Below the pieces are notes generated by a model. It was not told the DNA's origin. It saw only the letters and a list, made by a program, of their open reading frames with translations, and searched no databases. DNA of 55,842 bases, taken from positions 1 through 55,842 of the forward strand of contig JAFGFW010000035.1 in NCBI GenBank assembly GCA_016930875.1, written 5' to 3'. Source of the stretch: Deltaproteobacteria bacterium. Lineage in GTDB: Bacteria; Desulfobacterota; Desulfobacteria; Desulfobacterales; C00003060. Each line of letters starts with the position of its first letter. The first letter of the stretch is position 1. Shown piece by piece: positions 12,410 to 34,474 of this stretch. A program made the translations under genes and the position numbers.

Positions 12410-12460
12410 CAATAGAACTAAAATAGCTGGCACATTTTTCGCATAATTAGCCTAACAGTC

Positions 12461-12507
12461 TTGACTAGCTTGCCTTGGCATGTTATGAGTAATTAATCTA
12501 CTCATAA
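12461..12507 (+). promoter_or_regulatory. Candidate promoter with overlapping palindromic operator
   Basis: TTGACT (12461-12466) and TATGAG (12484-12489) with a 17-nt spacer make a plausible sigma-70 promoter. The -10 lies inside a perfect 9-bp inverted repeat, TTATGAGTA (12483-12491) and TACTCATAA (12499-12507), separated by 7 nt. The palindrome ends 11 nt before the TTG start of the winged-helix regulator gene, just ahead of its ribosome binding site. That placement suggests a repressor site, possibly for autoregulation. Confidence 0.55.
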
Positions 12508-12518
12508 AGAGGTGGGAA

Positions 12519-13076
12519 TTGGAGAATCTATTCGCAGGACTGATATCCTCAAAAACAAGAATTAAACTGCTTGTACGCCTTTTCTTTAACCCAAAGACGC
12601 GATCGTATCTTAGGGAGCTTGCAAAGGAATTTGGCGTATCCACCAATTCAGTTCGCGAGGAACTCAACCAGCTTACCGATACCAACCTATTGAAATCCGA
12701 AAGAAACGGACGTCAGGTCTTCTACATGGCCAATGAGGACCATCCATTGTTTCCTGAACTCAAGTCCATGGTCAGCAAGGTCATGGGCATGGATCAGGTC
12801 ATAGACGGTATTGTTAACCGGCTAGGTGACCTGGAGCGGGCGTATTTAATCGATGATTATGCTGAGGGCAAGGACACTGGGATCATCGACCTGCTGCTCG
12901 TCGGAGAGATCGACCAGTATCATCTGACCGATCTGAGCAGAAAAACAGAGCGATATATCAAGCGAAAAATACGCTCCTTGGTCCTGAGCCGTGAGGAGTA
13001 CAATGAACTCCTTCCAGAGCTGAAAAAACGTCCGCGGATTCTGGTCTGGGAGGCCAAGGAGGGGTTGGCTACGTGA
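12519..13076 (+). CDS. Winged-helix regulator with degenerate nucleotidyltransferase-like domain
   Basis: Residues 1-75 form a winged-helix DNA-binding domain (YLRELAKEFGVSTNSVREEL is the helix-turn-helix; ERNGRQVFYMAN the wing). Residues 95-185 resemble the minimal nucleotidyltransferase (MNT) fold. The catalytic GS is replaced (DDYAEG where GSFARG is usual) and the DxD motif reads IID, so activity is probably lost and the domain may serve sensing or dimerisation. The start is TTG 12519 with AGAGGTGGG upstream. It is the first gene of the plus-strand glycan locus, about 190 nt ahead of asnB, so control of that locus is a reasonable guess. Confidence 0.7.
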   Translation: MENLFAGLISSKTRIKLLVRLFFNPKTRSYLRELAKEFGVSTNSVREELNQLTDTNLLKSERNGRQVFYMANEDHPLFPELKSMVSKVMGMDQVIDGIVNRLGDLERAYLIDDYAEGKDTGIIDLLLVGEIDQYHLTDLSRKTERYIKRKIRSLVLSREEYNELLPELKKRPRILVWEAKEGLAT

Positions 13077-13270
13077 CCCCGATATTTTCGGTTTTAGGCT
13101 ATTGGCAAAATGGAAATTCCGCCTGTACGTAGCATATCTTCGGGCTGAGGTCGAGAGCTCGGAGTGACAAAGAAATGCTGTCTATTCAATAGGTTAGATA
13201 TCCTAGTGTTATGTAGCTGAAGGGGCGGAGCTGGGCAAAGGTCTCGAACGGAACGAATGACGACGCGAAG

Positions 13271-15199
13271 ATGTGCGGCTTTGTGGGAATACTAAGATTT
13301 GACGGCCAGAAGGTGGAGGCGGAAGATGTCGCCAGAATGTGTCGGGCACTGCAACATCGGGGGCCGGATGATAGCGGCATGTATATCACGCACAAGAATG
13401 AACATAAGCAAGAGCGCAAGGCGTGGGTTGGACTAGGCCATCAGCGGTTGAGCGTTATTGACCTCTCCCCGGCCGCCCGTCAGCCAATGTCGAACGAGGA
13501 TGGTTCTATCAGAGTGGTCTGCAACGGAGAGATATATAATCACAAGGCCCTTCGCCAGTCCTTGATCAAGAAGGGGCATCGTTTCAGATCCCAATCAGAC
13601 ACAGAGGTTATTCCACATCTTTACGAGGAATTCGGGCCAGGGTGCGCTGATCATCTGCGAGGCATGTTTGCCCTGGCCTTGTGGGATGGGCCGGAAGAAA
13701 CCATGTTTCTGGCCAGGGATCGAATGGGACAAAAGCCCCTTTATTATTACTCAGACGCCCGTTTTTTTGCCTGTGCCTCGGAGATCAGCGCCATCCTTCA
13801 ATTGTCGAGACTGGATCTTGCAACGGATAAGGAGGCGATAGATTGCTATTTCAAGTACGGATACATACTGGGTGATAGAACTCCCTACAAAAGGATTCGG
13901 AAGCTGCCGCCTGCCTTCCGGATGTTGATAAGGGATGGAAAGATATCGACTGAGCGGTATTGGGATGTGCCCTTTCCAACGGCTTCATCTTGCCGCGCCA
14001 CACATCAGGATTTCGTGGAGGAGTTTGACGCCATCCTTTCTGAAGCGGTGGGCCTGAGGTTGGAAAGCGACGTCCCGTTGGGTGTCTTCCTGAGTGGGGG
14101 GCTAGATTCCTCGGCCATTGTTTCAAAGATGGTCGGCGAGATGGGTCAAGGCGTCAAGACCTTTGCCATAGGGTTTTCTGAGGCATCATATGATGAAAGC
14201 TCTCACGCGAGGGAGGTGGCCAGCCTTTTCGGGACCGAACATCGAGAGTACACGGTCAACTTCTCCATCCGGGAGCTTTTGCCAAAGCTGGCGAGGCATT
14301 TCGGGGAGCCTTTTGCTGATTCTTCCGCCATTCCCACCTATCACCTTGCCCAGGCGACGCGTCAACAGGTGACGGTGGCCCTTTCAGGGGACGGTGGCGA
14401 TGAGCTCCTTTGTGGTTATAACCGGTATCTGGGGAGAAAAATCCTTGAGTATTATTTCCTCCTCCCGCAAGTCATTAGAAAAGGAGTGATAGAGAGACTT
14501 CTCGCGAGGTTCAACGTGGGCAGCCAATATTATGGAAAAAGCCTCATCAAACAGATCAAACTCGTAATTGAACAGGCATGCAGGTTGGAAAATAACCGGC
14601 TTGATGTTTTACCTCAGATTTTTGATCGCTCTCTTAGGCGGAGACTTTTGGGTTGGGAGACAAATGTAACTGGTTATGAGGGATCCTTTGACCAGGTCAG
14701 GCAGTATGCCCTTTCGGGGAATCATCTTGATGCCATATCCCAGATGATGTGGACTGATCTTCATACCTATCTTCCTGATGACATACTGGTCAAGGTCGAT
14801 CGGATGAGTATGGCACATTCTCTTGAAGTAAGATCGCCGTTCATGGATCACAGACTCGTGGAATTTGTGGCAAGGCTGCCTATCGAGCAGAAGCTAAACG
14901 GTTTGGCTACAAAATATCTCCTAAAGCGGACCATGAAGAACAAGCTTCCTCATCACATCATCCACAGGAAGAAACACGGATTCATGGTCCCCCTGGCAAG
15001 ATGGTTCAAGAGAGATCTCAAGCCGTTGGTGCGTGAGCACCTGTTGGACCGAGAGGCGCCTTTCGATCGGGCAGTGGCAGAGGGATTCCTGAGCGAACAC
15101 TGGAAGGGCAGGGCCGATCATTCTCACAAAATCTGGGCATTGTTGATGTACGCCTTGTGGAAAAACCGTGAACATTCTGGGTATTTACTACAAGCATAA
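13271..15199 (+). CDS. asnB: Asparagine synthase-like glutamine amidotransferase
   Basis: Class II glutamine amidotransferase fused to an ATP-dependent synthetase. The nucleophilic Cys2 follows the initiator (MCGFVGIL), RGPDDSG is at about 33-39, and the pyrophosphatase loop LSGGLDSSAIV is near 275. Later synthetase residues include SGDGGDELLCGYNRY and DDILVKVDRMSMAHSLEVRSPF. The 642-aa length is typical. Copies inside polysaccharide clusters are thought to amidate sugars such as uronic acids rather than make asparagine, but the substrate here is unknown. ATG 13271 overlaps no gene upstream. The 3' end overlaps the next glycosyltransferase by 32 nt. Confidence 0.9.
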   Translation: MCGFVGILRFDGQKVEAEDVARMCRALQHRGPDDSGMYITHKNEHKQERKAWVGLGHQRLSVIDLSPAARQPMSNEDGSIRVVCNGEIYNHKALRQSLIKKGHRFRSQSDTEVIPHLYEEFGPGCADHLRGMFALALWDGPEETMFLARDRMGQKPLYYYSDARFFACASEISAILQLSRLDLATDKEAIDCYFKYGYILGDRTPYKRIRKLPPAFRMLIRDGKISTERYWDVPFPTASSCRATHQDFVEEFDAILSEAVGLRLESDVPLGVFLSGGLDSSAIVSKMVGEMGQGVKTFAIGFSEASYDESSHAREVASLFGTEHREYTVNFSIRELLPKLARHFGEPFADSSAIPTYHLAQATRQQVTVALSGDGGDELLCGYNRYLGRKILEYYFLLPQVIRKGVIERLLARFNVGSQYYGKSLIKQIKLVIEQACRLENNRLDVLPQIFDRSLRRRLLGWETNVTGYEGSFDQVRQYALSGNHLDAISQMMWTDLHTYLPDDILVKVDRMSMAHSLEVRSPFMDHRLVEFVARLPIEQKLNGLATKYLLKRTMKNKLPHHIIHRKKHGFMVPLARWFKRDLKPLVREHLLDREAPFDRAVAEGFLSEHWKGRADHSHKIWALLMYALWKNREHSGYLLQA

Positions 15200-16292
15200 G
15201 CCGGGCGGGTTTTGCAAGCGCTTGTATCGATCATACAAAGCTCTGGCAGAGGCCGGACACAAGGTGCATTATATCTCCACGGAGATATTGCCGGTTCGTC
15301 ACAAAAATATCGTTGCGCACGTCATGAAGCTTCCCTTTAGAGATACAGACAGTATGTTCTTCTGGGTTGTTTTTACCGTGTGCGCTATGTTTCATGCCTG
15401 TTGCTTGTGCAGGCAACTAAACATAGGCATGGTGTTCGCTGTGGGTTCATACTACGCCTTTGTCAGTTGCCTCACCAAGATGCTCAACAAAACAACATTG
15501 ATAACTTACATTCATGCCCGCGACACAGATTACTCTCTCGTGATCGGCAGGCCATTGTCTCTAGTCAAGTTGCAGGCACTGTACGAGCACCTATCTTTTT
15601 CGATTTCTGACGTTATTCTGACCATCAACAGCAGCATAAAAAAAGATTTGGAGCACAGATATCCTCACTCAAGGATTGAGGTTCTCCCCAACAACATAGA
15701 AGTATCGGAGATGTCGGGGTCGGATTTCAGGAAGGAAATCCGTGTCGCGGCTGGCACATTTCTCATTGCAACATCTGGCGTTTTTACCAAGGGTAAGAAT
15801 ATTGGCTTTTTGATCAGGACCTTTTCTCGGGCTCAACTTGAGAATGCCCTGTTGATCATTGTCGGGGATATCTCCACACGGGATCTTTTCGAAAAGCAAA
15901 AGCTGGAGGCCCTGGCAGAGAATCTGGGAATCCCTGATCGGGTCATCTTTACGGGATGGAGAGCAGATGGGTGCGATGTTATTAGATCCATAGATCTTTT
16001 TGTGCTGCCCTCCGTGAGTGAAGGATGTCCCCTTTCCCTGCTTGAGGCATTGGGACTCGGGGTGCCTTGTCTGGGAAGTCGCATTCCTGAGATCAAAGAG
16101 ATCCTGCACTATGAGGAACTTCTGTTTGATTCCAAAGATAGAGAAGAACTGAGTCAAAAGCTTGTATCGTCAAAGAAAGAGGAGAAATTGGTTCTGTGGC
16201 GGAAATTATGTGAAAAGCGACGCCTCGTTTACACCTTTGATTGGGACAAGAGGTTCATAGAGACTTTGAGACATGTAGGTGTGGCGGTTTGA
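15168..16292 (+). CDS. Glycosyltransferase family 4
   Basis: A GT-B fold enzyme for transfer of a nucleotide-activated sugar in the cytoplasm. The C-terminal half shows GVFTKGKNIGFLIRTF, IVGDISTRDLF and the donor-binding region LPSVSEGCPLSLLEALGLG with the EX7E acidic pair. The N-terminal half is hydrophobic in places (about residues 60-100) and may contact the membrane. The GTG start at 15168 lies inside the asnB 3' end (32-nt overlap), and the 3' end overlaps the exporter permease gene. Sugar specificity cannot be predicted. Confidence 0.85.
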   Translation: MNILGIYYKHKPGGFCKRLYRSYKALAEAGHKVHYISTEILPVRHKNIVAHVMKLPFRDTDSMFFWVVFTVCAMFHACCLCRQLNIGMVFAVGSYYAFVSCLTKMLNKTTLITYIHARDTDYSLVIGRPLSLVKLQALYEHLSFSISDVILTINSSIKKDLEHRYPHSRIEVLPNNIEVSEMSGSDFRKEIRVAAGTFLIATSGVFTKGKNIGFLIRTFSRAQLENALLIIVGDISTRDLFEKQKLEALAENLGIPDRVIFTGWRADGCDVIRSIDLFVLPSVSEGCPLSLLEALGLGVPCLGSRIPEIKEILHYEELLFDSKDREELSQKLVSSKKEEKLVLWRKLCEKRRLVYTFDWDKRFIETLRHVGVAV

Positions 16293-17109
16293 GGAAATGA
16301 AGTCAGAAGCAGATGCCGTGTATATTTGCCCCACGGACTCCAGGGTAGAGTTGCACAGATTTTTCAACCTTCTGTGGGCTCTGGTCACGCGTGAATTAAA
16401 AGGGCGCTATCGCCGGTCACTCCTCGGGCCTGCGTGGGCAGTTTTTCAGCCACTATTCTACATGGTTATCTTTACTTTTTTGCGAGGGGTTCTTGATATT
16501 TCCAGCGAAGGTGTGCCTTACGTGATCTTTACTTACAGCGCCTTGGTGCCGTGGACCTTTTTTTCTAACTCGGTTATTCGGTGTGGCCCCAGTATCTCAT
16601 CCAATGCCGGAGTCCTAAAAAAAATTGCCATTTCCCGCGAGGTATTCCCCCTCGCTGGCGTGGTCACCTCGCTCGTTGATTTCTTTATTTCGTCTCTTAT
16701 TCTGGTTGGGATGATGATCTGGTTTCGAGTCCCCATAGGGATTTGCATACTCTGGCTGCCAGTTCTGGTGCTGCTAGTAGGCCTTTTGGCTTTGGGTATT
16801 GGATTCGGAGTGGCCGCTGTAGGCACATACAGACATGATGTTCTCTTCGCCATGCCGCTTTTGATGCAGTTCTGGCTACTGGTAACGCCTATTATGTATC
16901 CCATCGGCAAGGTGCCTGAGCGGTGGCAATTCCTTTACAGCCTCAACCCCATGGTCGGGATCATTGAAGGATTCAGGACGACTATTGTCAAGGGCATGGC
17001 GCCAGATCTTGGGCTTTTGTTCATCTCGTTGCTCGGCGTTGTGGTGGTTTGGGCAACAGGGTGGCTCCTTTTTCGTCACATGTCCCAATACTTCGCGGAT
17101 GTGCTGTAG
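16279..17109 (+). CDS. wzm: ABC-2 type polysaccharide export permease (Wzm-like)
   Basis: The membrane subunit of an ABC exporter for lipid-linked O-antigen or capsule-like glycans. It has 276 aa and six predicted helices. The N-terminal cytoplasmic part VTRELKGRYRRSLLGPAWAV and the PIMYPIGKVPERWQFLYSLN stretch followed by NPMVGIIEGFR are characteristic of Wzm/TagG-like permeases. It is followed two nt later by the cognate ATPase gene. Start choice is open: GTG 16279 overlaps the upstream gene by 14 nt, while ATG 16297 has GAGGA too close to be ideal. Confidence 0.9.
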   Translation: MWRFEEMKSEADAVYICPTDSRVELHRFFNLLWALVTRELKGRYRRSLLGPAWAVFQPLFYMVIFTFLRGVLDISSEGVPYVIFTYSALVPWTFFSNSVIRCGPSISSNAGVLKKIAISREVFPLAGVVTSLVDFFISSLILVGMMIWFRVPIGICILWLPVLVLLVGLLALGIGFGVAAVGTYRHDVLFAMPLLMQFWLLVTPIMYPIGKVPERWQFLYSLNPMVGIIEGFRTTIVKGMAPDLGLLFISLLGVVVVWATGWLLFRHMSQYFADVL

Positions 17110-17111
17110 TC

Positions 17112-18407
17112 ATGAACGATGTTACTATTCGAATTGATGGGCTCTGGAAGCGTTATGGGCTTCCCGTGCCTGCCGTGATGAGAAAGGGCATCAACTGGTT
17201 TCACGCAATCCGCAATCCGCAATCCGCAATCCGAAACACAGATGACGGTCCTTGGGCGCTCCGAGACATCAGCCTTCAGGTGAAGGCTGGCGAGACTCTC
17301 GGCATCATTGGACGCAATGGCGCAGGCAAATCCACCCTACTGAAGGTGTTAGCCGGGGTCACCCCCCCCACAACTGGGAGGATAGAGGTCCGGGGTCGGC
17401 TATTCGCCATGATTGAACTCAATGCCGGCCTCCACAAAGAACTGACGGGGCGCGAAAATGTTCGACTGCTGGGAGCTGTCATGGGGCTTGGTCGGAATGA
17501 AATCGAGGCGAAGATGGCCGAAATCGTGGATTTTTGCGAATTGGGTGAGTGGTTTGACCGTCCTGTCAGGAAGTATTCCAGTGGAATGCTCGCTCGCCTA
17601 GGGTTTGCCGTGGCTGTGAGTGTGGATGCGGAGATCCTGCTGGTCGATGAAGTGCTAGCTGTAGGAGATTTGGGTTTCCAAAGAAAATGTTACAGACGCT
17701 TTGAAGAACTGAGAAAAGAGGGGGCCGCCACATTGTTTGTTTCACACAACATGAGACAAGTCGAGCGGATTTGCGACCAAGTGCTTTTCCTCGACAATGG
17801 CCACCCTGTAGAGATGGGTTCTCCCGGAAGAGTCTGCCTCCGCTATTACAGAATGAGTGCTTCGGACGGCATGAGATCGGAGCATCGGGCATTGTCGGAA
17901 GTGGCAACGTGGGAGAGTTCTGGCGAACTGGAGATCAAAGCCGTGGAGATTATGGATCAGGAGAAGCGATCAGTCCAGTTGGTGAGGACCCTCGATTCTA
18001 TACGTATCCGAGTCCATTTCAACGCCGAGGAACGGATCGTTAGGCCCGTAATCGGTGTCACCGTGCTTACAAGCGATATGATCAAGCTGTTAGGTATGGG
18101 CACAGGACACAACTATCAACTGCCAGTCTGTCTAGAAGGCAACGGCTTTTTTGAACTCTTTATCCCTAATCTCAGTCTTCTCCCGGGGGTCTACTCGGTG
18201 GGTATCACTGTGAAGTCGCAAGACTCGCGAAAGATATATTCCGGCCAGAACTTGGCGAATTTCTCTGTCGAACACTCGATCGTAAACAAGAACTCATTTG
18301 GGATGGTGCATACTGATTCAGAATGGAAGTTTTCGGAAGGTTCATTCCGGACACATATTGGCGAGTCACAAAGACATAGGGTAGGAGACCCCAGTGAGAA
18401 GGGATAG
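17112..18407 (+). CDS. wzt: ABC polysaccharide exporter ATPase with C-terminal glycan-binding domain (Wzt-like)
   Basis: The ATPase partner of Wzm. Walker A GRNGAGKST is at residues 67-75, the signature YSSGM near 160, Walker B ILLVDEVLAVGD near 180, and the H-loop FVSHNMRQ near 205. Residues from about 255 to 431 form the Wzt C-terminal beta-sandwich that recognises the glycan end in related O-antigen systems. The start ATG 17112 lies two nt after wzm; an in-frame ATG at 17049 inside wzm is less likely. Residues 32-41, in the variable stretch before Walker A, are encoded by four exact copies of a 7-bp repeat (see separate entry). Confidence 0.92.
   Translation: MNDVTIRIDGLWKRYGLPVPAVMRKGINWFHAIRNPQSAIRNTDDGPWALRDISLQVKAGETLGIIGRNGAGKSTLLKVLAGVTPPTTGRIEVRGRLFAMIELNAGLHKELTGRENVRLLGAVMGLGRNEIEAKMAEIVDFCELGEWFDRPVRKYSSGMLARLGFAVAVSVDAEILLVDEVLAVGDLGFQRKCYRRFEELRKEGAATLFVSHNMRQVERICDQVLFLDNGHPVEMGSPGRVCLRYYRMSASDGMRSEHRALSEVATWESSGELEIKAVEIMDQEKRSVQLVRTLDSIRIRVHFNAEERIVRPVIGVTVLTSDMIKLLGMGTGHNYQLPVCLEGNGFFELFIPNLSLLPGVYSVGITVKSQDSRKIYSGQNLANFSVEHSIVNKNSFGMVHTDSEWKFSEGSFRTHIGESQRHRVGDPSEKG
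17205..17232 (+). repeat. Four tandem heptanucleotide repeats inside wzt
   Basis: GCAATCC is repeated four times without mismatch at 17205-17232, encoding AIRNPQSAIR in the linker of Wzt before the Walker A motif. Because the unit is 7 bp, loss or gain of one copy would shift the reading frame upstream of all ATPase motifs. The same kind of oligonucleotide repeat is otherwise seen between genes. Confidence 0.85.
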
Positions 18408-19218
18408 GAATACGGGCAGCAACGAGTACAGCGTTTGTGGAGCCTACCATGCTGAATTGAGGATGCCACCCACGTGGCTCCCAAGATACTTCAGGAGACT
18501 TCACATTGTTCAGGAAGTCCTATCTGCACACCTCCCTGAAGAAGCCTCCATTATTGATGTCGGTGGAGGAGAGGGAGCCCTGGTCGAAGGGCTGGTGGAA
18601 CGCGGATTCAAGAACATTGTCGGAGTCGATCCATATGCGCCCTTTTCCAATGGGAGAATGGTGAAAGGGGATATTCTTGCTTTGCCTTTTCATGGCGCGG
18701 CCTTTGATGCAGTAATATGCCTTGACGTTCTTGAACATGTCCCGCTCCATCTCCAGCTCAATGCAGCTCGTAGCCTGGAACGACTCCTGAAGCCAGGCGG
18801 CTTTGCTCTGGTCTCGGTTCCGAATATGGCCCATCTAAAGTCGCGCATAGACTTTCTGTTTAAAGGGCAACCTTGGCGAAACAAGCTTCGGAAACATCCT
18901 GGTGAACTTACCATGCTGGAAAGGCTGCAGGTTTTGAGGGAGGCGGGTCTTCTTCTGGCTGACAGCGTGGGACTACATCTTACGTTAAGCTACAACCCGA
19001 CTCCCAAAGGCCCTCTTGGCAGACTGATCTCCTCCATCATGTTCAGCGTGGCCATGCCGCCGGCCCTGTGTTGGACCGTAGTCCTTCTAGTTTACAAAAA
19101 GCCGAGACCTCAATGGATAGGAAACATTCCTGCAAGGAGCAGAAAGTGGAGTCCCTTGAGGGCGGCCCTGAAGAGCTACGCTCCTCCAAAGGAGGACCCG
19201 ACATCATTTCTAACATAG
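18394..19218 (+). CDS. Class I SAM-dependent methyltransferase
   Basis: The Rossmann-like SAM-binding motif I is IIDVGGGEGALVEGL (about residues 48-62), followed by VGVDPY, then FDAVICLDVLEHV and LLKPGGFALVSVPN, the usual order for class I enzymes of the UbiE/COQ5-like group. The C-terminus has a hydrophobic segment (about 210-235) that may attach it to the membrane. The GTG start at 18394 has TAGGAG upstream and overlaps wzt by 14 nt. Placement after wzm/wzt suggests methylation of the exported glycan, possibly chain-end capping, which is known to control length in some Wzm/Wzt systems. Confidence 0.85.
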   Translation: MRRDRNTGSNEYSVCGAYHAELRMPPTWLPRYFRRLHIVQEVLSAHLPEEASIIDVGGGEGALVEGLVERGFKNIVGVDPYAPFSNGRMVKGDILALPFHGAAFDAVICLDVLEHVPLHLQLNAARSLERLLKPGGFALVSVPNMAHLKSRIDFLFKGQPWRNKLRKHPGELTMLERLQVLREAGLLLADSVGLHLTLSYNPTPKGPLGRLISSIMFSVAMPPALCWTVVLLVYKKPRPQWIGNIPARSRKWSPLRAALKSYAPPKEDPTSFLT

Positions 19219-19268
19219 AGTATTGCCTGTGGACGGGACGGTTTTGGCAATGTTCCTTATGAGGCAAC

Positions 19269-21143
19269 ATGGCAAGTAAAAAATCGATTAGATCGGCGAA
19301 CAGGGTTGGCTTTGCCGTTGGCACTGGCCGTTGTGGCACCACATTTCTTTCAAGAGTGATTGAGTTAGAGCCAGATGTGGCCCACGCCCATGAACGAAAT
19401 CGGCTGAACGAGAGCTTTCATCGGTACTGCAAGTGGTATGGACTGCCCGTGGACGATGAGGGTTTCCTGCACACGAAGGGAAAAGAGATAGAGGCGGATC
19501 TGAAAGAGAAAATCTTTTCTTTTGAAGCCAGTGCCCACCTGTCTCTGTCTGTCGAAGAACTCCACAGCCGATTTGCAGCGAAGTTCGTCCTTTTGGTGAG
19601 AAGCCCGGAAAAGGTGGTGAATTCATACCTTCGCAAAGGCTGGTACCGTGAACCGATATTCAGGTCGAATCTGCATCAGGCTCTCGGGTATCAGGAGTGT
19701 GATAGATTTCAGCACTTCCTGGGGCGAATCGTGCCCTCTGGGGAAGCCTTCAAAATATGGACAGAAATGACTCGTGTGGGAAAGCTCTCTTGGTTCTGGA
19801 ACGTCCTTAACGAAAGGGTTCTTCAACAATTTGCGGCAATACCCGAATCGCAATGGCGTGTGGTAAAACTGGAGGAACTGAGTTACAGGACCTATCTGGA
19901 CATAGCTGCGTTTCTTGGCTTTGAGAGCAGGATGGGCGCGGAAGCTTATGAAAACGTAGCGCGAGCAAGGCCAAATGCGTTGCCTGGCGGCAGAAGTATT
20001 ACCGATTGGACGGAGGCGGAAAAGAGGGAATTTGAAATGTCCGTTGCCCCCATGGCTGGAAGGCTGGGCTACGAATTCCGAGTCGACACACTTCTCAAGG
20101 AGAAAGAAAAACAAAGACCTCGAAATCAAGATCTTGAGAAGAAGGAGGGTACCATCGCGGTCACCGGGACCGCCCCGGGACCGGAGATAATAACGATAGT
20201 CATTCGCAGCTGTGGCGAGCGCACTGAAAAGGCTTGTTTTCGCTCCCTTGCACAACAGGTCCCTGAACAAAACATAGTTGTCATCAGGGAGTATCCCTTT
20301 GCAAAGGCGTTAGCCGAGACATTTAAGATAGGCCTGGAAAGGGGGCGTCCATGGACCCTTTGCGTGGATGCCGATGTACTGCTTCGAAAGGGGGCGGTAA
20401 GAGAATTCCTGCGCGCAGCAGCCCAATCGGACGAAAAGACCTTCGAGATACAATATAATGTCTTGGACAAATTTTTCGGAGGTCCAAAGCCGGCTGGGAA
20501 CCATCTTTACAGAACGCGTCTGCTTCGTCAGGCTCTCGACTTCATTCCAGAAGACACTGTGACCATGCGGCCGGAGACTTCTGTCATCAAGGCCATGGGA
20601 GAATTGGGATTTCCTTGGGTTCAGGAGGCCACAGCCATCGGCTTGCATGACTACGAACAGTATTACAGAGACATTTATCGAAAAGCACTCGTTCACGCAT
20701 GCAAGCACAGAAAACACGTCTCCCATTTAAGGGCCTTCTGGCGCAACCAGCCCAGAGAGGACAGAGATTTCCAGGTGGCACTGTGGGGGCTTCAGGCTGG
20801 GCTTGTTCATCACCAAAGGGTTACGTTGGACGCGAGGATGTTTCGCGAGGATGTGGATATACTTCTGAATCTCAAAGGTTGGCAGGAAAAAGGGGAGCTC
20901 TTGGGGGACCGAAAATTGGACTTGGAAGTAGGGGAGTTCATGGATGCTTTTGATCCTCCCGAGGCGTATTGGGCCTGGAAGAGACTTGTGAGCGAGGTTG
21001 GGTCAAAGGGTAAATGTGAACAATGGGGATCCGAGCTCAGCGCGGTGTTGGACAGGACTGGGTGGTTGAGGATCTTGCCATGGCTTGCCGGTTGGGGCAT
21101 GGCCCGCGTGGGTCGGGCAATCCAAAGGTGGATAGAAGGGTAG
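19269..21143 (+). CDS. Fusion of sulfotransferase-like and glycosyltransferase-like domains
   Basis: Residues 1-280 look like a PAPS-dependent sulfotransferase: the 5'-phosphosulfate loop GTGRCGTTFLSR lies near residues 18-29, and LLVRSPEKVVNSYLRKG near 107 matches the 3'-phosphate binding region. Residues 305-624 begin with a GT-A-like strand, ITIVIRSCGERTEKACF, and contain LCVDADVLLRKGAV near 363, which fits a nucleotide-sugar DxD motif. The two halves are joined by a charged linker (about 275-300). It would both place and sulfate a residue, or act on two substrates in one pathway. ATG 19269 lies 50 nt after the methyltransferase. The C-terminal assignment is less certain than the N-terminal one. 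Confidence 0.7.
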   Translation: MASKKSIRSANRVGFAVGTGRCGTTFLSRVIELEPDVAHAHERNRLNESFHRYCKWYGLPVDDEGFLHTKGKEIEADLKEKIFSFEASAHLSLSVEELHSRFAAKFVLLVRSPEKVVNSYLRKGWYREPIFRSNLHQALGYQECDRFQHFLGRIVPSGEAFKIWTEMTRVGKLSWFWNVLNERVLQQFAAIPESQWRVVKLEELSYRTYLDIAAFLGFESRMGAEAYENVARARPNALPGGRSITDWTEAEKREFEMSVAPMAGRLGYEFRVDTLLKEKEKQRPRNQDLEKKEGTIAVTGTAPGPEIITIVIRSCGERTEKACFRSLAQQVPEQNIVVIREYPFAKALAETFKIGLERGRPWTLCVDADVLLRKGAVREFLRAAAQSDEKTFEIQYNVLDKFFGGPKPAGNHLYRTRLLRQALDFIPEDTVTMRPETSVIKAMGELGFPWVQEATAIGLHDYEQYYRDIYRKALVHACKHRKHVSHLRAFWRNQPREDRDFQVALWGLQAGLVHHQRVTLDARMFREDVDILLNLKGWQEKGELLGDRKLDLEVGEFMDAFDPPEAYWAWKRLVSEVGSKGKCEQWGSELSAVLDRTGWLRILPWLAGWGMARVGRAIQRWIEG

Positions 21144-21179
21144 AGATGGCCGTGACCTGCGTGGAGGTTGAAAGAAATC

Positions 21180-22050
21180 ATGTGGTTTGAGAAGAAGATA
21201 TGTTTCTGTGTTGGACTTCAAAGGTCAGGGACAACCGCCCTCTCGCGTTTTTTACTGTCTCAACCGGGAGTCACACAACCCGACACAGTCGATAAGAGGA
21301 AGGCTAATCGTGAATGCTGGGGTGCTTTTGAAGTAACTACGCAACGGAAGGGGACCGACGTAGGATAACCGCAAGACCTTTCCTTTTGGCAAAGGTCTGA
21401 AAGCAAGCTCCGCGTGTACTCCTTTATGCGGCCCGGGAAGGTGCTTTTTGTAAAAACGCTTAAGAACTGTGTCCGCATACTGGCTCTAAGACAAATCTTC
21501 CCGGAGGCGAAAATACTCTTCCTATATCGGGATCCGAGAGCGATTTTGAAATCATGGTGGCAGGCAAAAGGCTATCATCACCTTACGTCTGGTTACCACC
21601 GTCATCCTTACTATGCCAAACAGTCAGATGGCAAATTCTATTGGCAGCCGCCACCTCTGGAAGGAGAAGACCTTGCGGGATACTCCTATGACGAGATAGT
21701 TGCTCGGGCTGACGCTGCGACGGAAGGGCCATGGTGGAATACATACGAGTCTTTTTTGCCATCGGGTTTTGCAGCTCAAGGGCGCTTTGGAATATCATCT
21801 GGACAATTCGGTACTGCTTCGTGGTGACCATTACATGAAGATAGCCTATGAAGACCTTTGTGAAAACGCGGTGAGTGTTCTCACACGGATGTTTGAGTTT
21901 ATGGGAGTCTCGTGGACGGGGGACGATACACGTGCGAAGTAGTTCTTCTCAAGTCGAAACTACAAATACAAGGCGCTGCCCGAACAGATGCGTGAATTTG
22001 CTGAACAGGAACTAAGAGAAGTGGGTCTTCGCCTGGGTTACGAATGGTGA
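21180..22050 (+). pseudogene. Decayed sulfotransferase gene (two stops, one frameshift)
   Basis: A sulfotransferase of about 290 codons can be followed only by crossing three lesions. From ATG 21180 the frame shows VGLQRSGTTALSRFLL (PAPS 5' loop) and meets TAA at 21366-21368. The same frame continues with ILFLYRDPRAILKSWW (3'-phosphate site). Near 21770-21785 the reading must move by one base (an extra base or two missing) to give GALEYHLDNSVLLRGDHY and IAYEDLCENAVSVLTRMFEF. A TAG at 21940-21942 interrupts that frame, which then runs to TGA 22048-22050 (ending GLRLGYEW). Sequencing error could explain one lesion but hardly all three. Confidence 0.8.
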
Positions 22051-23144
22051 GCAGTCGGCCTGACAAAAGAGGGGATACGCCCCTACGGAAGAAGATCTGT
22101 GTTCCCATGCCCTATCGACCAGAAGGCGGTCGGCACACCTTTGTGGCCAATCTTAAGAGGTATCTGAAAGAGAAAAACATCCCTTACACGGAGGACATGG
22201 AGGATCGCTATGATGTTTTGTTCACCAATTCATGGGTTGTGCCGTACGAAGAAATAAAGCGAGTGAAGGCGAGGCGACCTCAGCTGCGGGTGGTGCACCG
22301 CGTCGATGGGTCTGCTCAAGACTATGGACGATTTGACGATGCAGATCACCTTCAGGCTCGGGTGAATATGTTAGCCGATGTCACTATTTTTCAAAGTGTG
22401 TATTCGAAATACAGCACAACAAACAAGTTCACCGTCGTTCAAGGAGATGGCCCCATCATCTATAATCCGGTTGACGTGGACGTGTTCTGTCCTGATGGTC
22501 CGTTCTATCCCCTGAAAGGCGAGACGAAAGTCTGCAATGCCGCGTTTAGCATGAATCCGAAAAAGGGTACTTGGAAAATCGGCGAGTTGGCCCAGAAGAA
22601 TCCTGATGTCTTTTTCGTACTATGTGGACATTATCCAAACTTGCCGCGATTGCCAAACATTCAGTCTTTGGGCCATCTAGAGAGATCGGAACTGGCGGCT
22701 GCCATGCGGTCTTGTGACATCTTCCTGCATTTGGCAGAGAATGACCCCTGTCCGAATGTTGTTTTGGAGGCAATGGCAAGCGGGTTGCCGGTCCTGTATA
22801 AGGACAGTGGTGGGACGCCAGAACTTGTGGGCGAGTGCGGAGTCATATTTTCAGACCATGGTTTCCGCCAGCAGCTTGTGATGATCGTGGCAGAGCGGAA
22901 AAAGCTATCCACAGCTGCACGGGAGAGGGCGGTCCGAGAATTCTCGCCTCATCGGATTTTTCCCCAATATCTTGAAGCCATGTTGGAGGCGAAACGGCAT
23001 CCAGTGCCGACGCGGGCAATGCTACTGCGATTGTATCTCAAAGGATATCCCGTCGTAAAGAGTCCCTTGGAAGAAATCAGTCAGTATGCCCGAGTTATGG
23101 TAAGGCCCTTGCTACGGCTTTTGCATGGTATATTGAAACGTTGA
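22044..23144 (+). CDS. Glycosyltransferase family 4
   Basis: A 366-aa GT-B enzyme. The N-terminal domain has MPYRPEGGRHTFVANLKRYL and VVHRVDGSAQDYG. The C-terminal donor domain shows FLHLAENDPCPNVVLEAMASG followed by GLPVLYKDSGGTPELVG, the usual loop and helix that hold the nucleotide sugar. ATG 22044 overlaps the end of the decayed sulfotransferase by 7 nt, so it was probably coupled to it before decay. The substrate is unknown. Confidence 0.85.
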   Translation: MVSSRPDKRGDTPLRKKICVPMPYRPEGGRHTFVANLKRYLKEKNIPYTEDMEDRYDVLFTNSWVVPYEEIKRVKARRPQLRVVHRVDGSAQDYGRFDDADHLQARVNMLADVTIFQSVYSKYSTTNKFTVVQGDGPIIYNPVDVDVFCPDGPFYPLKGETKVCNAAFSMNPKKGTWKIGELAQKNPDVFFVLCGHYPNLPRLPNIQSLGHLERSELAAAMRSCDIFLHLAENDPCPNVVLEAMASGLPVLYKDSGGTPELVGECGVIFSDHGFRQQLVMIVAERKKLSTAARERAVREFSPHRIFPQYLEAMLEAKRHPVPTRAMLLRLYLKGYPVVKSPLEEISQYARVMVRPLLRLLHGILKR

Positions 23145-23306
23145 AACCTCCTCCGCGTGGTCTCCGATTTGACGATGAGGCTTGTGCGAACAGGTAATGT
23201 CGTCAAAACACCCGAGTCGATATCCTGCGAGACGGAAGGTTGGCGGACATTATTAGCCTTTTTTCATATCCTGGGAACCTAAGAAAAGCCACTTCCACTT
23301 GTTTGT

Positions 23307-24443
23307 ATGGATGTCAGGAACCTGCCAAAGGCAAGACCTGCCCACTTGATTCTGCCACGCTTGGATGTCCGTCCTGGAGCTCAGTCTGACAACCCTAAAC
23401 AGTTCAGGAGCGATTTACGATCTCCTGGACCGATGGCAAGTGAACTAATGGATCGTGTTGTCTGGTTCATTCCTGTCAGCTACCGTGACTATAACAATAT
23501 GCCGGCCTCGGTGTGGATCCGCTGCCAGCAGTTAATCCCCTATCTGGAACAGCGGAACATCCGTTGCGCAGTAAATCAGAGTGATGATGAGGCAGAGATA
23601 GCCGTGTTCGTGCGCTGGCAGGACGAGCAAGCCTATAACCTAGCTCGGCGGATGAAGCAGAAAGGGAAGAGAATCGTTTTTGACCTATGCGTGAACTACT
23701 TTGACGAAACTGGACTCTTCGACGGCGGGTATGGGACAACTGCCAAACAAGTTTCAGAAGCACGACGCATGATTGAGATGGCCGACACAGTCACGTGTGC
23801 TTCAGCCTACATCGCTGAGAGAGCGCGGGAATTTCACTCCTGGGTTGAGTATCTGCCCGACTCCATTGACCATCGACACTTTTGCTACCGCAAGCCAGTT
23901 AGAGATTTTTACCGGCCGAGACTCCGTGCCATCTGGAGCGGAACGGCTTCCAAGGCCCGAGAACTGGAGCCTATCCTCCCTCTTCTTCAACGGATGGGTA
24001 TGGAACTGGTGATCATTTCGGATCGCGATCCGGGTCTGAAGTCATCCGGATGGATATGGGAACGGAATGTCCAGTATCACTTTGTGCCATGGCGGTACGA
24101 ACTCTTTCCCACATCCATCTTAGAGGGCGAGGTTTGCGTTGTTCATCGCAAGGTCAATGATCCATATAATCAAGGGCATAGTTCATTCAAGATCGGGGTC
24201 TTCATGGCGCAGGGCGTTCCGGCCATAGCTTCTCCTGTGCCGTCTTATCAAGAACTGCTGGGAAACGGGACTGGTGGGCGTTTGTCGTCCTCCATGGAAG
24301 ACTGGGAAGCGGCTTTCAACGAGGTTGTAAACGATAGAGATATTTTGGCTCGATGGTCCCATGAGGCATGCCAGACAATGGAAGCATACAGAACTGAGCG
24401 CATTGTGGAGCAATACATTAGACTGTTCAACCAGCTTAGCTAG
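23307..24443 (+). CDS. Glycosyltransferase-like protein (GT-B fold, unassigned)
   Basis: 378 aa from ATG 23307, but the first 42 residues look unlike a domain. ATG 23433 or 23448 gives the natural beginning MDRVVWFIPVSYRDYNNMPA. The middle (MADTVTCASAYIAERAREF, then EYLPDSIDH) and the C-terminal HSSFKIGVFMAQGVPAIASP follow the GT-B layout in which a conserved loop binds the donor. The canonical EX7E pair is not obvious. A gap of 162 nt with no visible feature separates it from the previous gene. It is probably a sugar transferase of the same locus. Confidence 0.65.
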   Translation: MDVRNLPKARPAHLILPRLDVRPGAQSDNPKQFRSDLRSPGPMASELMDRVVWFIPVSYRDYNNMPASVWIRCQQLIPYLEQRNIRCAVNQSDDEAEIAVFVRWQDEQAYNLARRMKQKGKRIVFDLCVNYFDETGLFDGGYGTTAKQVSEARRMIEMADTVTCASAYIAERAREFHSWVEYLPDSIDHRHFCYRKPVRDFYRPRLRAIWSGTASKARELEPILPLLQRMGMELVIISDRDPGLKSSGWIWERNVQYHFVPWRYELFPTSILEGEVCVVHRKVNDPYNQGHSSFKIGVFMAQGVPAIASPVPSYQELLGNGTGGRLSSSMEDWEAAFNEVVNDRDILARWSHEACQTMEAYRTERIVEQYIRLFNQLS

Positions 24444-24460
24444 AGATAAGGGGCAACTCC

Positions 24461-25279
24461 GTGGGACAGCCCACCTACAAAGCCAGCCGTTGTGTTGAAA
24501 ATGGACGCCTTGTTTACCATATGCACACAGCGGATGTGGGCTTTTGGGAACAGCACTGGCACAATCACTTTTCAGCCGATATCTATGGCAAGGCTGAAAG
24601 GGGGTGGCTGGCAGAGTGGTTCGAGATGCCCTTCACTGTTTGGCTGCCGCGTCAAGGCCTTATTGTAGAGGCGGGGTGTGGTCTCGGGCATCTTGTTTTG
24701 GCATTGAGGACGCGCGGATACGAGACAGAAGGCGTTGAAATGGCATCGGCCACGGTGGAATTGGTAAAAGACTGCCGGCCGGATCTGCCGATCCGAGTTG
24801 GTGATGTTACTCGTCTCGATGTGCCAGACGGGTACTATGGAGGTTACATCTCTCTGGGGGTAGTCGAGCACCGCAGGGAGGGGCCTGACATCTTCTTAAA
24901 TGAGGCTTGGCGCGTCTTGAAACACGGTGGCGTTGCATTGGTCTCTGTGCCATGTTTCAACCCTTTGCGCCGTTTGAAGGCTAGATTCCGACTTTACCGA
25001 GGTGCTACAGAAGGCCTCCAGTTTTATCAATATGCCTTTACGGAAAGAGAGTTCAACGATCTGATGAAGGATTGTGGCTTTGAAGTCGTTGATACCGTGA
25101 GCTATGACCCGTTCAAGGGTTTGAAAGATGAAATCCCGGGGCTTCGTCGCATACTGGAGTGGCGCTATGTGGGATCGCGCCTCAAGCGACTGCTTAAGAT
25201 TCTGTTCAGGCATTGTCCAGGATTTTCACAACGTGTAGGCCACATGCTCCTCGTGGTGGGGAAAAAACATGCGAAGTAG
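24461..25279 (+). CDS. Class I SAM-dependent methyltransferase
   Basis: 272 aa. SAM motif I is LIVEAGCGLGHLVLALRTRG (about residues 67-86), followed by EGVEMA, then GGYISLGVVEHRREGP and VLKHGGVALVSVPCFNP. The C-terminal part LQFYQYAFTEREFNDLMKDCG is shared with many glycan and ubiquinone-type methyltransferases. The GTG start at 24461 is preceded by AAGGGG. It follows the previous gene after 17 nt and is likely in the same transcript. The target is presumably a sugar or lipid-linked intermediate. Confidence 0.85.
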   Translation: MGQPTYKASRCVENGRLVYHMHTADVGFWEQHWHNHFSADIYGKAERGWLAEWFEMPFTVWLPRQGLIVEAGCGLGHLVLALRTRGYETEGVEMASATVELVKDCRPDLPIRVGDVTRLDVPDGYYGGYISLGVVEHRREGPDIFLNEAWRVLKHGGVALVSVPCFNPLRRLKARFRLYRGATEGLQFYQYAFTEREFNDLMKDCGFEVVDTVSYDPFKGLKDEIPGLRRILEWRYVGSRLKRLLKILFRHCPGFSQRVGHMLLVVGKKHAK

Positions 25280-25389
25280 GCGATCTACGAGATGGGATAT
25301 GCACCGATTGGTCTTCTTCCTTGAAATAGGCCTTTCCTAAAGGCATGGGAAGGAAGTGGGATTCTGGAATGCAAGGTTGCCCTGTAGCC

Positions 25390-26493
25390 ATGCGTCTTGT
25401 CCTCTTCTTTACGTCAGGTATATCGCTGCGAACTTGGGACACGATAGGCTCCCTCGACCGTGAAGTTGCCCTCTACAAAGCGATCCTCCCGAAGTTGGGG
25501 GACGTCAAGTTCGTGACCTACGGAGACCGCCGAGACCTTCTCTATGCCAGACAGTTGGGGGGAATAGACGTCGTTTGCAACAGATGGAACCTGTCAAAGC
25601 ATTGGTACATGCGTCTTTTGTCACAAGTGTACCCCCGTTTTTGGGGTAAAGACGTACTGGTTAAGAGCAATCAGATTCCAGGATCAGACGTGGCACTGAG
25701 AGCCGCCCAGAACTGTGGTAAGAAGTTCATCGCCCGCTGTGGTTACCTGCCTTCCAACATAGCCAAGACACGTCAGGACATGGGGCCCAGTGAGATCCAA
25801 CGCGCTCAAGAGCTGGAGGAGACGGTCTTTAGAGGCGCAGATCGTGTTGTCGTTACAACACCCATGATGCGGCGCACCGTGGTCGACAGTTATGGTGTTG
25901 AAGGCAGCAAAGTGAGGGTCATCCCGAACTACGTTGATGTCAAGCGATTCAAGCCCTCATCAAGTTCAAAGGAGCCGAAGCTGTTGTGCTATGTCGGACG
26001 ACTGGAACCTGAGAAAAATGTTGAAGCGTTGCTGAATGCCGTTGAGGGGCTGGACATTGAACTGCATATCATTGGCGGCGGCAGTTTGAAAGATCGGCTC
26101 ACAGCCCAAGCACAGAAAAAACTATTGCCGGTCCGATTCATAGGCAATGTGCCGAACAACGAGCTTCCCACCTACTTGAGCAATGCCTCTGTCTTTATTT
26201 TGCCTTCTCACATAGAACATCACCCAAAGGCACTCATTGAAGCCATGGCCTGTGGACTGCCGGTCATAGGGACGGATGTATATGGCATCCGGGAACTCAT
26301 TGAACACCGCCAGACTGGCTATTCGTGTGACACCTCTCCTGAGGCACTCCGGGAAGCCATTGCAGACGTGATGGCCGATGCGGATCTGAGGTTACGTCTT
26401 GGGCGGAATGCCAGAGAGTTCGCAGTGGAACACTTTGCGCTGGACAAGATTGTAGATATGGAGCTGAGCTTGTTGGAGGAGCTGATCGGGTAA
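25390..26493 (+). CDS. Glycosyltransferase family 4
   Basis: Retaining GT-B enzyme with a complete C-terminal domain: VIPNYVDVKRFKP, CYVGRLEPEKNVEALLNAVE, HIIGGGSLKDRL, VRFIGNVPNNELP and the EX7E region LPSHIEHHPKALIEAMACGL. From ATG 25390 it has 367 aa and begins MRLVLFFTSGISL. Upstream in-frame ATGs at 25345 and 25369 would add up to 15 residues without domain character. It sits between two methyltransferase genes in the plus-strand glycan locus. Confidence 0.88.
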   Translation: MRLVLFFTSGISLRTWDTIGSLDREVALYKAILPKLGDVKFVTYGDRRDLLYARQLGGIDVVCNRWNLSKHWYMRLLSQVYPRFWGKDVLVKSNQIPGSDVALRAAQNCGKKFIARCGYLPSNIAKTRQDMGPSEIQRAQELEETVFRGADRVVVTTPMMRRTVVDSYGVEGSKVRVIPNYVDVKRFKPSSSSKEPKLLCYVGRLEPEKNVEALLNAVEGLDIELHIIGGGSLKDRLTAQAQKKLLPVRFIGNVPNNELPTYLSNASVFILPSHIEHHPKALIEAMACGLPVIGTDVYGIRELIEHRQTGYSCDTSPEALREAIADVMADADLRLRLGRNAREFAVEHFALDKIVDMELSLLEELIG

Positions 26494-26510
26494 AGCTCCG
26501 TGGCCAGCGA

Positions 26511-27341
26511 ATGGTGCCAAAACTGATGCCTCATCGTACAAGTCAATTATTAGATTTATCCTTGCGTCGAGTTGCCAGATTCACAATTCGTCGGCTCATG
26601 GACCTGGCTTCACGGGTCGTGACTGGGTGCGTGGCTGGCCTGCCCGTTTCCTGGTTGGAGCGTGCTATCTGTGGCCTTGTTGAAAAAAGAGCGGGGCGTT
26701 TGGCGGCGGATGAGGCCCTTCGGTTCTTGTTTCGATTGGATTCAAGGTTCTATGCCCTCCAGGGACAAAAGGCCGTGGAATATGGTGGCGGCCTCCACAC
26801 CAAGCATCGCCACATCGGGTATCACGAGTTCTTCATTTCCAGAATCCATAAGGGCGAGAGAGTACTCGACGTGGGATGTGGCGTAGGCGCTGTGGCCTAT
26901 GATGTAGCTGAGCGGGCCGGAGCCCAGGTCGTGGCCATAGATTTCAACGCCCGGGCTATTGAAGAGGCCAGAAAACGCCGAAGCCATCGCCGGGTTGAAT
27001 ACCGTGTTGGCAATGTCTTGGAGGATGCTCTCGATGGACCTTTTGACGTTGTTATCCTGTCCAATGTACTAGAGCATTTGCAGGAGCGTTCGGCATTTCT
27101 TCGTCGTCTGAAAGAAGCAGCGAAACCCTCACGCATTCTGATCCGCGTGCCCCTCTTCGAACGGGATTGGCGTGTTCCTTTGAAGCGCGAGTTGGGCATG
27201 GAATGGCGCTTAGATCCGACCCATGAAATTGAATATGCCGTGGAGTCCTTTGACGAAGAATTGGGCTCAGCAGGACTCATTCTTTCCCACAGAGAGGTTC
27301 GATGGGGAGAGATTTGGGCAGAGGCGGTCGCACGTGGCTGA
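26511..27341 (+). CDS. Class I SAM-dependent methyltransferase
   Basis: 276 aa. Residues 1-100 are a basic, partly amphipathic extension of unknown role (RRVARFTIRRLMDLASRVV). The methyltransferase fold then begins with ERVLDVGCGVGAVAYDVAER, AQVVAIDFN, FDVVILSNVLEHLQER and PSRILIRVPLFERDW. The GT2 gene that follows starts 8 nt before its stop, indicating translational coupling. It probably modifies the same glycan as its neighbours. Confidence 0.83.
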   Translation: MVPKLMPHRTSQLLDLSLRRVARFTIRRLMDLASRVVTGCVAGLPVSWLERAICGLVEKRAGRLAADEALRFLFRLDSRFYALQGQKAVEYGGGLHTKHRHIGYHEFFISRIHKGERVLDVGCGVGAVAYDVAERAGAQVVAIDFNARAIEEARKRRSHRRVEYRVGNVLEDALDGPFDVVILSNVLEHLQERSAFLRRLKEAAKPSRILIRVPLFERDWRVPLKRELGMEWRLDPTHEIEYAVESFDEELGSAGLILSHREVRWGEIWAEAVARG

Positions 27342-28347
27342 ACCTATGGTGAGCGTACTGATGAGTGTTTACGATGGGGAACGCTATTTGCGTGATTCAG
27401 TCGAAAGTATGCTCAACCAGACCTTTGCTGACTTCGAATTTGTCATTGTAAACGATAGCTCGACCGATGCGTCGCGGGCCATCCTGGAAAGCTATGATGA
27501 TTCGAGGATTTTGCTTCTGCATAACCAGAAGAACAGGGGCCTGACATACTCCCTGAACAGAGGGTTAGCCGCGGCAAAGAGCGAATATGTGGCGCGGATG
27601 GATGCTGACGACATCTCCGTGCCTCAGCGATTGGAAAAGCAGGTGTCTTTTCTTAGAGCACATCCAGAGATTGGCATTCTGGGTTGCTCCTGCGACAACA
27701 TCGATTCAGAAGGTCGACGTGTCGGATCCAGCACCATGCCGGAAACTGACCTCGCGGTCCGCTGGGTCAGCCTTCTTGGAAATCCTTTTATACATTCTAC
27801 GGTGATGATTCGACGTGGCATCCTGGTTAGCAACGGCCTGAAGTATGACGAGACCTTTGAGACAGCGCAGGATTACGACCTCTGGACCCGGATGCTCCAG
27901 CACACACGTGGTGCGAATCTGGGCGAACGGCTTATTCGATACCGTTTGTGTGACAATGTGACTAGGAAACAGCGGAAGAGCCAGTTACAGAACCATGATA
28001 TCATTGCCGTGCGAACGATCCGAGAACAGCTACCCGACTTCATCGTCAACCCGGAGAGAATTAGTGAATTGGGTAGACTCTTTATTGGGGGCGATTATAG
28101 CACCCGTGAAGTTGCAGGAAAACGTGTCGCATTAGCCAACCTGTATCTCAACATGTTTGAGAAGTTCATGGACCGCTGCGACTCAGAGCCAAGCGGCAGG
28201 CGACTGAAACGTGACGTAGCGGCAAGGGCGGCTCGCATTATTTTTCATCGGCCTTTGCAACAGGGATGGATGACCACTCTGATGCGTCTAGCCATTCTTG
28301 AGCCCACCTTCGCACTCCCATTTTTTCCCAACTTGAGCAAAAAATGA
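27334..28347 (+). CDS. Glycosyltransferase family 2
   Basis: A GT-A inverting enzyme. The start region MVSVLMSVYDGERYLRDSV, FVIVNDSSTDASR, ARMDADDISVPQRL (the metal-binding DxD), and GNPFIHSTVMIRR followed by AQDYDLWTRM are classic for the WcaA/EpsE-like GT2 group. The frame is open from 27223, but domain logic points to GTG 27334 (overlapping the methyltransferase by 8 nt, GAGGCGG upstream) or ATG 27346. It is predicted cytosolic or membrane-associated. The stop overlaps the next gene by 4 nt (ATGA). Confidence 0.88.
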   Translation: MAEPMVSVLMSVYDGERYLRDSVESMLNQTFADFEFVIVNDSSTDASRAILESYDDSRILLLHNQKNRGLTYSLNRGLAAAKSEYVARMDADDISVPQRLEKQVSFLRAHPEIGILGCSCDNIDSEGRRVGSSTMPETDLAVRWVSLLGNPFIHSTVMIRRGILVSNGLKYDETFETAQDYDLWTRMLQHTRGANLGERLIRYRLCDNVTRKQRKSQLQNHDIIAVRTIREQLPDFIVNPERISELGRLFIGGDYSTREVAGKRVALANLYLNMFEKFMDRCDSEPSGRRLKRDVAARAARIIFHRPLQQGWMTTLMRLAILEPTFALPFFPNLSKK

Positions 28348-29795: not shown

Positions 29796-29872
29796 TTTCA
29801 ACCCGGAAGGGTTTAGTAGGCGAAAAAGATCTTTTCAAAGGTCTGTCACAGACTCGCAGACAATGAGATACA

Positions 29873-30916: not shown

Positions 30917-30999
30917 TTTCCCAGAATATCGTAACTCTAGATTCTTTCCCGAGTTCTCTCGTCGTTTCTTTCATGTGTGCCACTCCTCGGTGATACCCA

Positions 31000-34437: not shown

Positions 34438-34474
34438 ATGGAGCGCCCTCTTCCCTTTCAAGAAGAGAGATGTC

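Follow-up and report, generated by a model that had tools for sequence, protein, structure and literature searches.

The window, by which we mean the whole stretch of 55,842 nucleotides that was analysed, carries a short regulator gene with a palindrome in its promoter, followed on the same strand by a long run of surface-glycan genes (Table 1). The sequence-only reading had described this glycan locus as one of about 20 genes, which is fair: most of the 19 plus-strand ORFs are of glycan type by Pfam, among them asparagine synthase, glycosyltransferases, an ABC-2 permease with a Wzt-type ATPase, methyltransferases and sulfotransferases, and the ORFs at 23307, 32156 and 33649 match no Pfam family at E 1e-5. 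A gap of 194 bp separates the regulator gene from asnB. Two terminator-like sites were scored in this region on both strands, against 0.7 expected, and the weak hairpin where the regulator gene ends might reduce read-through.

Table 1. Features of the regulator gene and the adjoining glycan locus, in positions of the window
Feature	Position	Strand	Basis or remark
Sigma-54-like -24/-12 element, TGGCAC-N5-TCGC	12428..12442	+	ahead of the sigma-70-type promoter
-35 hexamer of the regulator gene, TTGACT	12461..12466	+	read from sequence
Extended -10, TG-T-TATGAG	12481..12489	+	read from sequence; overlaps left palindrome arm
Putative palindromic operator, TTATGAGTA-N7-TACTCATAA	12483..12507	.	family core GAGTAG-N5-CTACTC
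Ribosome-binding site, GAGGTGGG	12509..12516	+	read from sequence; relatives G-rich at the same place
Regulator gene, 185 aa, TTG start	12519..13076	+	ORF
Regulator domains (residues): ArsR-like winged helix ~8-75, helix 76-104, dead MNT domain 105-156, tail			
Weak terminator-like hairpin, overlapping the regulator gene end	13061..13080	+	terminator scan
Glycan locus, 19 ORFs	13271..35629	+	non-overlapping ORF choice and Pfam

The promoter of the regulator gene and the palindrome are interlocked. A 9-bp inverted repeat with a 7-bp spacer had been proposed to lie over the predicted -10 of the gene at 12519, and both parts of that proposal hold: the repeat is exact at 12483-12507, with no match expected at up to three mismatches in 100 shuffles of the window, and its left arm overlaps the -10 because TATGAG occupies 12484-12489. 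The hexamer is preceded by TG at 12481-12482 and stands 17 bp after TTGACT. It is without the final T, and a generic promoter scan of the regulator region flagged no promoter. The transcription start point is predicted at about 12495-12498, within the spacer of the palindrome, so that the operator overlaps the predicted -10 and +1 of its own gene, as that of an autorepressor would. At up to three mismatches the palindrome is present as a single copy in the window together with the 3.68-Mb draft genome.

The encoded protein joins a winged helix to an MNT-like domain, as the sequence-only reading had it. Searches of Pfam and NCBIfam give it no family name, all listed matches falling under the cut-offs (HTH_metalloreg at 37 of 55 bits), and residues 1-98 of its model match ArsR-type winged helices, best of all CadC (Z 11.9 over 84 residues at 2.2 A). 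The winged-helix fold is shared with the ArsR/SmtB repressors, which have a cysteine metal site; the window protein adds an MNT domain and has no cysteine in its 185 residues, and a metal-sensing ArsR was rejected on this ground. As the winged helix dominated the Z table of the whole model, the MNT domain was modelled alone (pLDDT 87.6). In Foldseek this model is led by MNTs (2rff, MntA), 2rff having probability 1.00 and E 2.3e-3 and no match reaching E 0.001 or less; by Z it resembles the nucleotidyltransferase HalB (6.5, 64 residues, 2.9 A) and 2rff (5.3, 64 residues, 2.5 A), scores that are modest. On these models the C-terminal domain has the MNT fold.

By its residues, the MNT active site is dead. 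Loss of the GS motif and of the first Asp had been claimed, and is plain in the window protein, where D112 D113 replace GS and I122 replaces the first Asp; the third acid is lost as well (K150). In the dead family as a whole (93 proteins, the window included) the S, the first Asp and the third acid are each replaced in every member and the G in 85, the second Asp being kept in all 93. The MNT core is nevertheless better conserved than the winged helix, at 0.913 against 0.840 in 81 near proteins and 0.744 against 0.662 in 12 divergent ones. This speaks for a function that has been kept, although the same order in the intact PDC-M05A proteins considered below (0.614 against 0.559) means that it is not special to the dead clade. 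Since the dead domain is so strongly conserved, it is plausible that it became a ligand sensor.

An alignment of 24 relatives was used in a GTDB-based scan, which gave 203 encoding stretches; the best 80 loci were kept. Most of these loci carry record labels of Desulfobacterales, Desulfobacteraceae, Deltaproteobacteria, Syntrophales-type bacteria or Thermodesulfobacteriota, a few of Proteobacteria and one of Bacteroidales. In 77 of these best 80 of the 203, the upstream 200 bp contain the operator with at most four mismatches in 18 (22 are perfect), and in those 77 it begins 34-40 bp before the start codon; dinucleotide-shuffled upstream regions gave 5 matches in 4000, and the reversed pattern 1 in 80. 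The preset check on the sequence-only reading, that the palindrome be conserved upstream of orthologues, was therefore passed, with the reservation that relatives of common ancestry do not supply independent events. GAGTA and TACTC are invariant or nearly so, and conservation is mostly higher in the left outer arm, the one that doubles as the -10, than in the right. The promoter is conserved with the operator: 72 of the 77 relatives have TTGACA with at most one mismatch starting 27-18 bp before the palindrome, whereas a control window gave 10 of 76; at the extended -10 positions, 46 of 77 have the TG and 63 the T.

Three of the 80 loci depart from this pattern. L049 (4765-5319) is an orphan regulator copy without the operator, having a DUF6088 gene upstream and a HicA-type gene downstream. 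In L078 (G045, contig 166) several full and broken regulator copies are found within 7.3 kb, with the palindrome at one copy and none at the best-matching copy, and in L108 the operator lies 3.3 kb upstream.

A sigma-54-like element, possibly a second promoter, stands upstream of the sigma-70-type promoter in the window. The pattern TGGCAC-N5-[T/C][T/C/G]GC was seen in the window and in four of the 80 loci, 90-104 bp ahead of the start, as a TGGCACG type in L033, L034 and L036 and as a variant in L070, three of these four being closely related; across 2.03 Mb, both strands of the same loci, it occurs 11 times, those four included.

The linkage between site and gene was assessed by scanning 389 genomes of the order for promoter and operator together (TTGAC-N17-22-GAGTA-N7-TACTC), which yielded 40 sites in 39 genomes, against 15 matches for the backward pattern. 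Thirty of these sites were read; 27 precede a full regulator gene, and one (L128) precedes a regulator copy cut by the contig end. In genome G031 (L121/L143) the site is followed by a regulator remnant of about 30 codons and then by a polysaccharide flippase gene, while in L138, the same locus as L108, it is followed by a flippase gene, two sulfotransferase genes and only then by a regulator, which has no site of its own. Hence, in two rearranged loci the operator directly precedes glycan-export genes. L025 has a longer leader between site and start codon. Together with the rearranged loci, this ties the element to the promoter of the transcription unit and not to the start codon of the regulator.

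These loci bear on two other accounts of the palindrome. It adjoins the ribosome-binding site and shows some symmetric changes in its arms, as might be expected of a leader RNA hairpin acting in translation control or attenuation; we consider this very improbable, since a transcript beginning at the predicted start point in the spacer would hold the right arm only, and since the repeat of L025 and L108 has kept its place at the promoter and not at the regulator start codon. It might otherwise be bound by another, unlinked transcription factor that controls the promoter. The tie between site and protein is drawn from sequence, and G031 keeps the operator though its regulator is a remnant, but the 30 sites read from the 389 genomes pair with the gene almost one to one, and such a factor would be expected to have other targets, none of which rises above control; we judge this account improbable.

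A weight-matrix scan over 1.01 Mb of loci added, to the regulator-linked sites and those at L078 and L108, three weak matches (L037, L046 and L079), scoring up to 14.2 bits against at least 19.6 for true sites, and reversed sequence gave five. A wider regulon was considered and rejected: at up to three mismatches, about 136 forward-strand matches were counted in 96 genomes, regulator sites included, against about 197 for the backward control, so that sites elsewhere are not above chance. Within the window the weight-matrix scan found no second operator at asnB or elsewhere. The idea that the palindrome might recur upstream of asnB is thus not borne out, and asnB could be affected by read-through only.

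The neighbourhoods of the relatives are likewise rich in glycan genes. Our neighbourhood table holds no ORF from L070 or L110, and the Pfam tallies cover 124 of 191 listed downstream ORFs and 46 of 57 upstream, from the first 25 of 78 and of 41 families respectively. Over the first three downstream genes (n=124), the commonest among the families listed are flippases (15) and nucleotide-sugar dehydratases and epimerases (12), with ABC ATPases (11), methyltransferases (10), Wzt domains (8), aminotransferases (5) and cytidylyltransferases (5) also present. Upstream neighbours are often glycosyltransferases (11 of 46), which places the regulator within glycan regions. GAF and ANTAR domains were each counted in 4 of the 46 upstream neighbours, probably in the same genes; these are putative RNA-binding antiterminators adjoining the regulator promoter. 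In two divergent relatives the first ORF past the regulator is of the NusG family (L234, 4735-5244, E 4.6e-20; L240, 3452-3955, E 6e-18), resembling the RfaH/UpxY-type antiterminators that head polysaccharide operons.

The regulator would reach the glycan genes of the window by read-through. The gap and the weak hairpin before asnB would suit a protein that activates, or that buffers its own dosage without controlling the glycan genes. We hold this to be unlikely, because an operator over the -10 and +1 would block polymerase, because the same promoter and operator stand directly before flippase genes in the two rearranged loci, and because the next ORF lies on the same strand as the regulator in 62 of 70 loci (median gap 144 bp in 61 loci).

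Outside the dead family, the regulator has a near homologue in PDC-M05, a PADLOC candidate composed of the M05A nucleotidyltransferase and the M05B HEPN protein and presented in its source as an unvalidated candidate defence module (PMC12988326). The regulator matches PDC-M05A (PDLC04368) at E 6.7e-29 over residues 6-165 of 185, and profile-profile comparison gives 99.8% over 175 columns, so that the two share their two-domain layout and near full-length homology. They differ in the active site and in the neighbouring gene. Among 41 PDC-M05A proteins (repeated proteins removed; L149 and L155 left out for an unclear start, L181 and L206 because no M05A was found) the G and S are present in all 41, the first position is D in 40 and E in one, the second D is present in 41 and the third E in 40. 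Of ten M05A loci retrieved through the M05A protein and having an unambiguous start, eight include a HEPN gene, which overlaps in every case. For the dead family, in contrast, no HEPN match was found at E 0.01 in the window and the 80 loci, some of them short contigs, among six-frame ORFs of at least 60 aa (6210 ORFs, five control loci included). Four of the five control loci scored, three of them having supplied sequences to the profile and one (L146) not; the fifth, L150, is without a HEPN gene anyway. No HEPN gene was found in the window's own genome at E 1e-15 or 1e-12. By sequence, then, the regulator is a relative, without a HEPN neighbour, of the PDC-M05A (wHTH-MNT) partner in HEPN modules.

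In two unrooted trees the dead family forms one side of a fully supported branch; the bootstrap had not settled in the first, and the second was built from 10 of 26 regulator rows and roughly half the M05A rows. As the trees are unrooted, the order 'antitoxin first' depends on taking loss of catalysis as the derived state. The regulator might instead be a simple ligand-sensing autorepressor that never was an antitoxin: its ancestor shared with PDC-M05A would already have been a regulator, HEPN being added later in the PDC-M05A line, and this too would place the two groups on two sides of one branch. We find that history rather doubtful, the catalytic residues being intact in 40-41 of 41 PDC-M05A proteins and loss in one clade being simpler. 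L231 and L232 are intact wHTH-MNT proteins that adjoin a HEPN gene and still match the dead-family profile at about 1e-28; under midpoint rooting L231 branches at the base of the M05A side. Distant relatives were found in nine plasmid records, of which two were read: in one the relative precedes a gene annotated as HEPN, and in the other an IS3-family transposase gene lies upstream of it.

Palindromes at the gene start extend to PDC-M05A. Perfect 7-N7-7 repeats lie in the 75 bp before 9 of 41 PDC-M05A genes, where shuffles give 0.3; among perfect 7-bp arms no other spacing is as common as N7 (N4 6, N5 5). With one mismatch allowed, N7 repeats are found before 20 of 41 genes, against 3.8 in shuffles, alongside N5 (25), N9 (22) and N3 (21). 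Among the longest perfect repeats with arms of at least 7 bp (n=19), seven have no spacer, a frequency due in part to sites standing in tandem, and four have a 7-bp spacer. Two types of palindrome are present, TTGTATG-N7-CATACAA and TTGTACC-N7-GGTACAA. In L146, L150, L179, L196, L197, L204 and L208 the M05A gene is preceded by two 7-N7-7 palindromes in tandem, with one mismatch at most, and the second of them touches the start codon or comes close to it. From these counts start palindromes are a property of the family, in which 7-bp spacing is frequent and not universal. We predict autoregulation, by way of palindromes at the M05A gene start, for many HEPN/MNT modules of this kind.

Among the divergent dead relatives, GTTC-N9-GAAC, a motif chosen after inspection, precedes five of the 12, all in one supported clade, against 4 of 2400 shuffles; the other seven are without it, one having a GAGTA-type site and several no clear palindrome. 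The GTTC-N9-GAAC clade has a changed recognition helix. Within this small sample, palindrome sequence and recognition helix differ together by clade, as expected if each protein reads its own operator, and a clade with another recognition helix that carries another palindrome at the same spacing speaks further against an unlinked factor.

The explanation that we favour, and consider likely, is that the regulator is a domesticated antitoxin-type autorepressor of a surface-glycan operon, acting through its own palindrome. We infer a dimeric winged-helix protein that would bind the palindrome (7- to 9-bp arms, 7-bp spacer) over the -10 and the start point; when bound it would block polymerase, shutting off its own gene and, by loss of read-through into asnB, the glycan operon. 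Release would come from a ligand bound in the dead MNT pocket or from altered dosage. Its clade would descend from the antitoxin-like wHTH-MNT partner of PDC-M05 HEPN/MNT modules or be sister to it, and would have lost catalysis and the neighbouring HEPN gene while keeping the DNA-binding and autoregulation logic, with the MNT fold retained as a binding or dimer domain. Against this domesticated autorepressor stand the weak -10, unflagged by the promoter scan, the gap and hairpin before asnB, the three relatives that depart from the operator pattern, the loose spacing in PDC-M05A, the divergent dead relatives that lack GTTC-N9-GAAC, and the outliving of the regulator by its operator in G031.

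Parallels can be drawn with several known systems. NrtR carries an enzyme-like, inactive Nudix domain joined to a winged-helix DNA-binding domain. As a Nudix-related autorepressor (PMC6800001), it likewise combines enzyme-like and DNA-binding parts, with another enzyme fold and in another pathway. The MNT fold is held in common with the HEPN-MNT toxin-antitoxin systems (MntA/HepT; SO_3165/SO_3166), from which the window regulator differs in having, by its residues, no competent MNT and in that no toxin partner was found. VapB14 of Sulfolobus, of a family unrelated to the window regulator, is also an antitoxin with a second, transcriptional role, and still neutralises its toxin. That second role is reported to lie in surface behaviour, namely biofilm dispersal (PMC10127717). 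The MNT antitoxin SO_3165 is described as binding and repressing its own promoter, with palindromes near the -10 and -35, the same account giving it no predicted DNA-binding domain (PMC4621449). A 2009 survey judged a putative MNT-HEPN antitoxin, at that time taken to be the HEPN protein, an unlikely transcription regulator in its discussion of that pair (PMC2701414), and domestication of HEPN/MNT systems has been treated as a known theme (PMC3710099).

Term searches of the literature returned no description of this regulator family among the matches listed. For the variable surface-glycan loci of the Desulfobacterota, a group in which few regulators of such loci are known, the work supplies an operator and a regulator that can be tested. 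More speculatively, and with little confidence, the antitoxin-like half of a mobile HEPN/MNT defence module may have been domesticated as a conserved switch for a surface glycan that serves as phage receptor, in which case the dead pocket may still read the cue that frees the HEPN protein of the parent module, a nucleotide or an infection signal, and the coat would be turned up or down on attack. The family more generally suggests a route by which a part of a defence or toxin-antitoxin system may become an ordinary gene switch, catalysis and the toxin being lost while DNA binding and autoregulation are kept.
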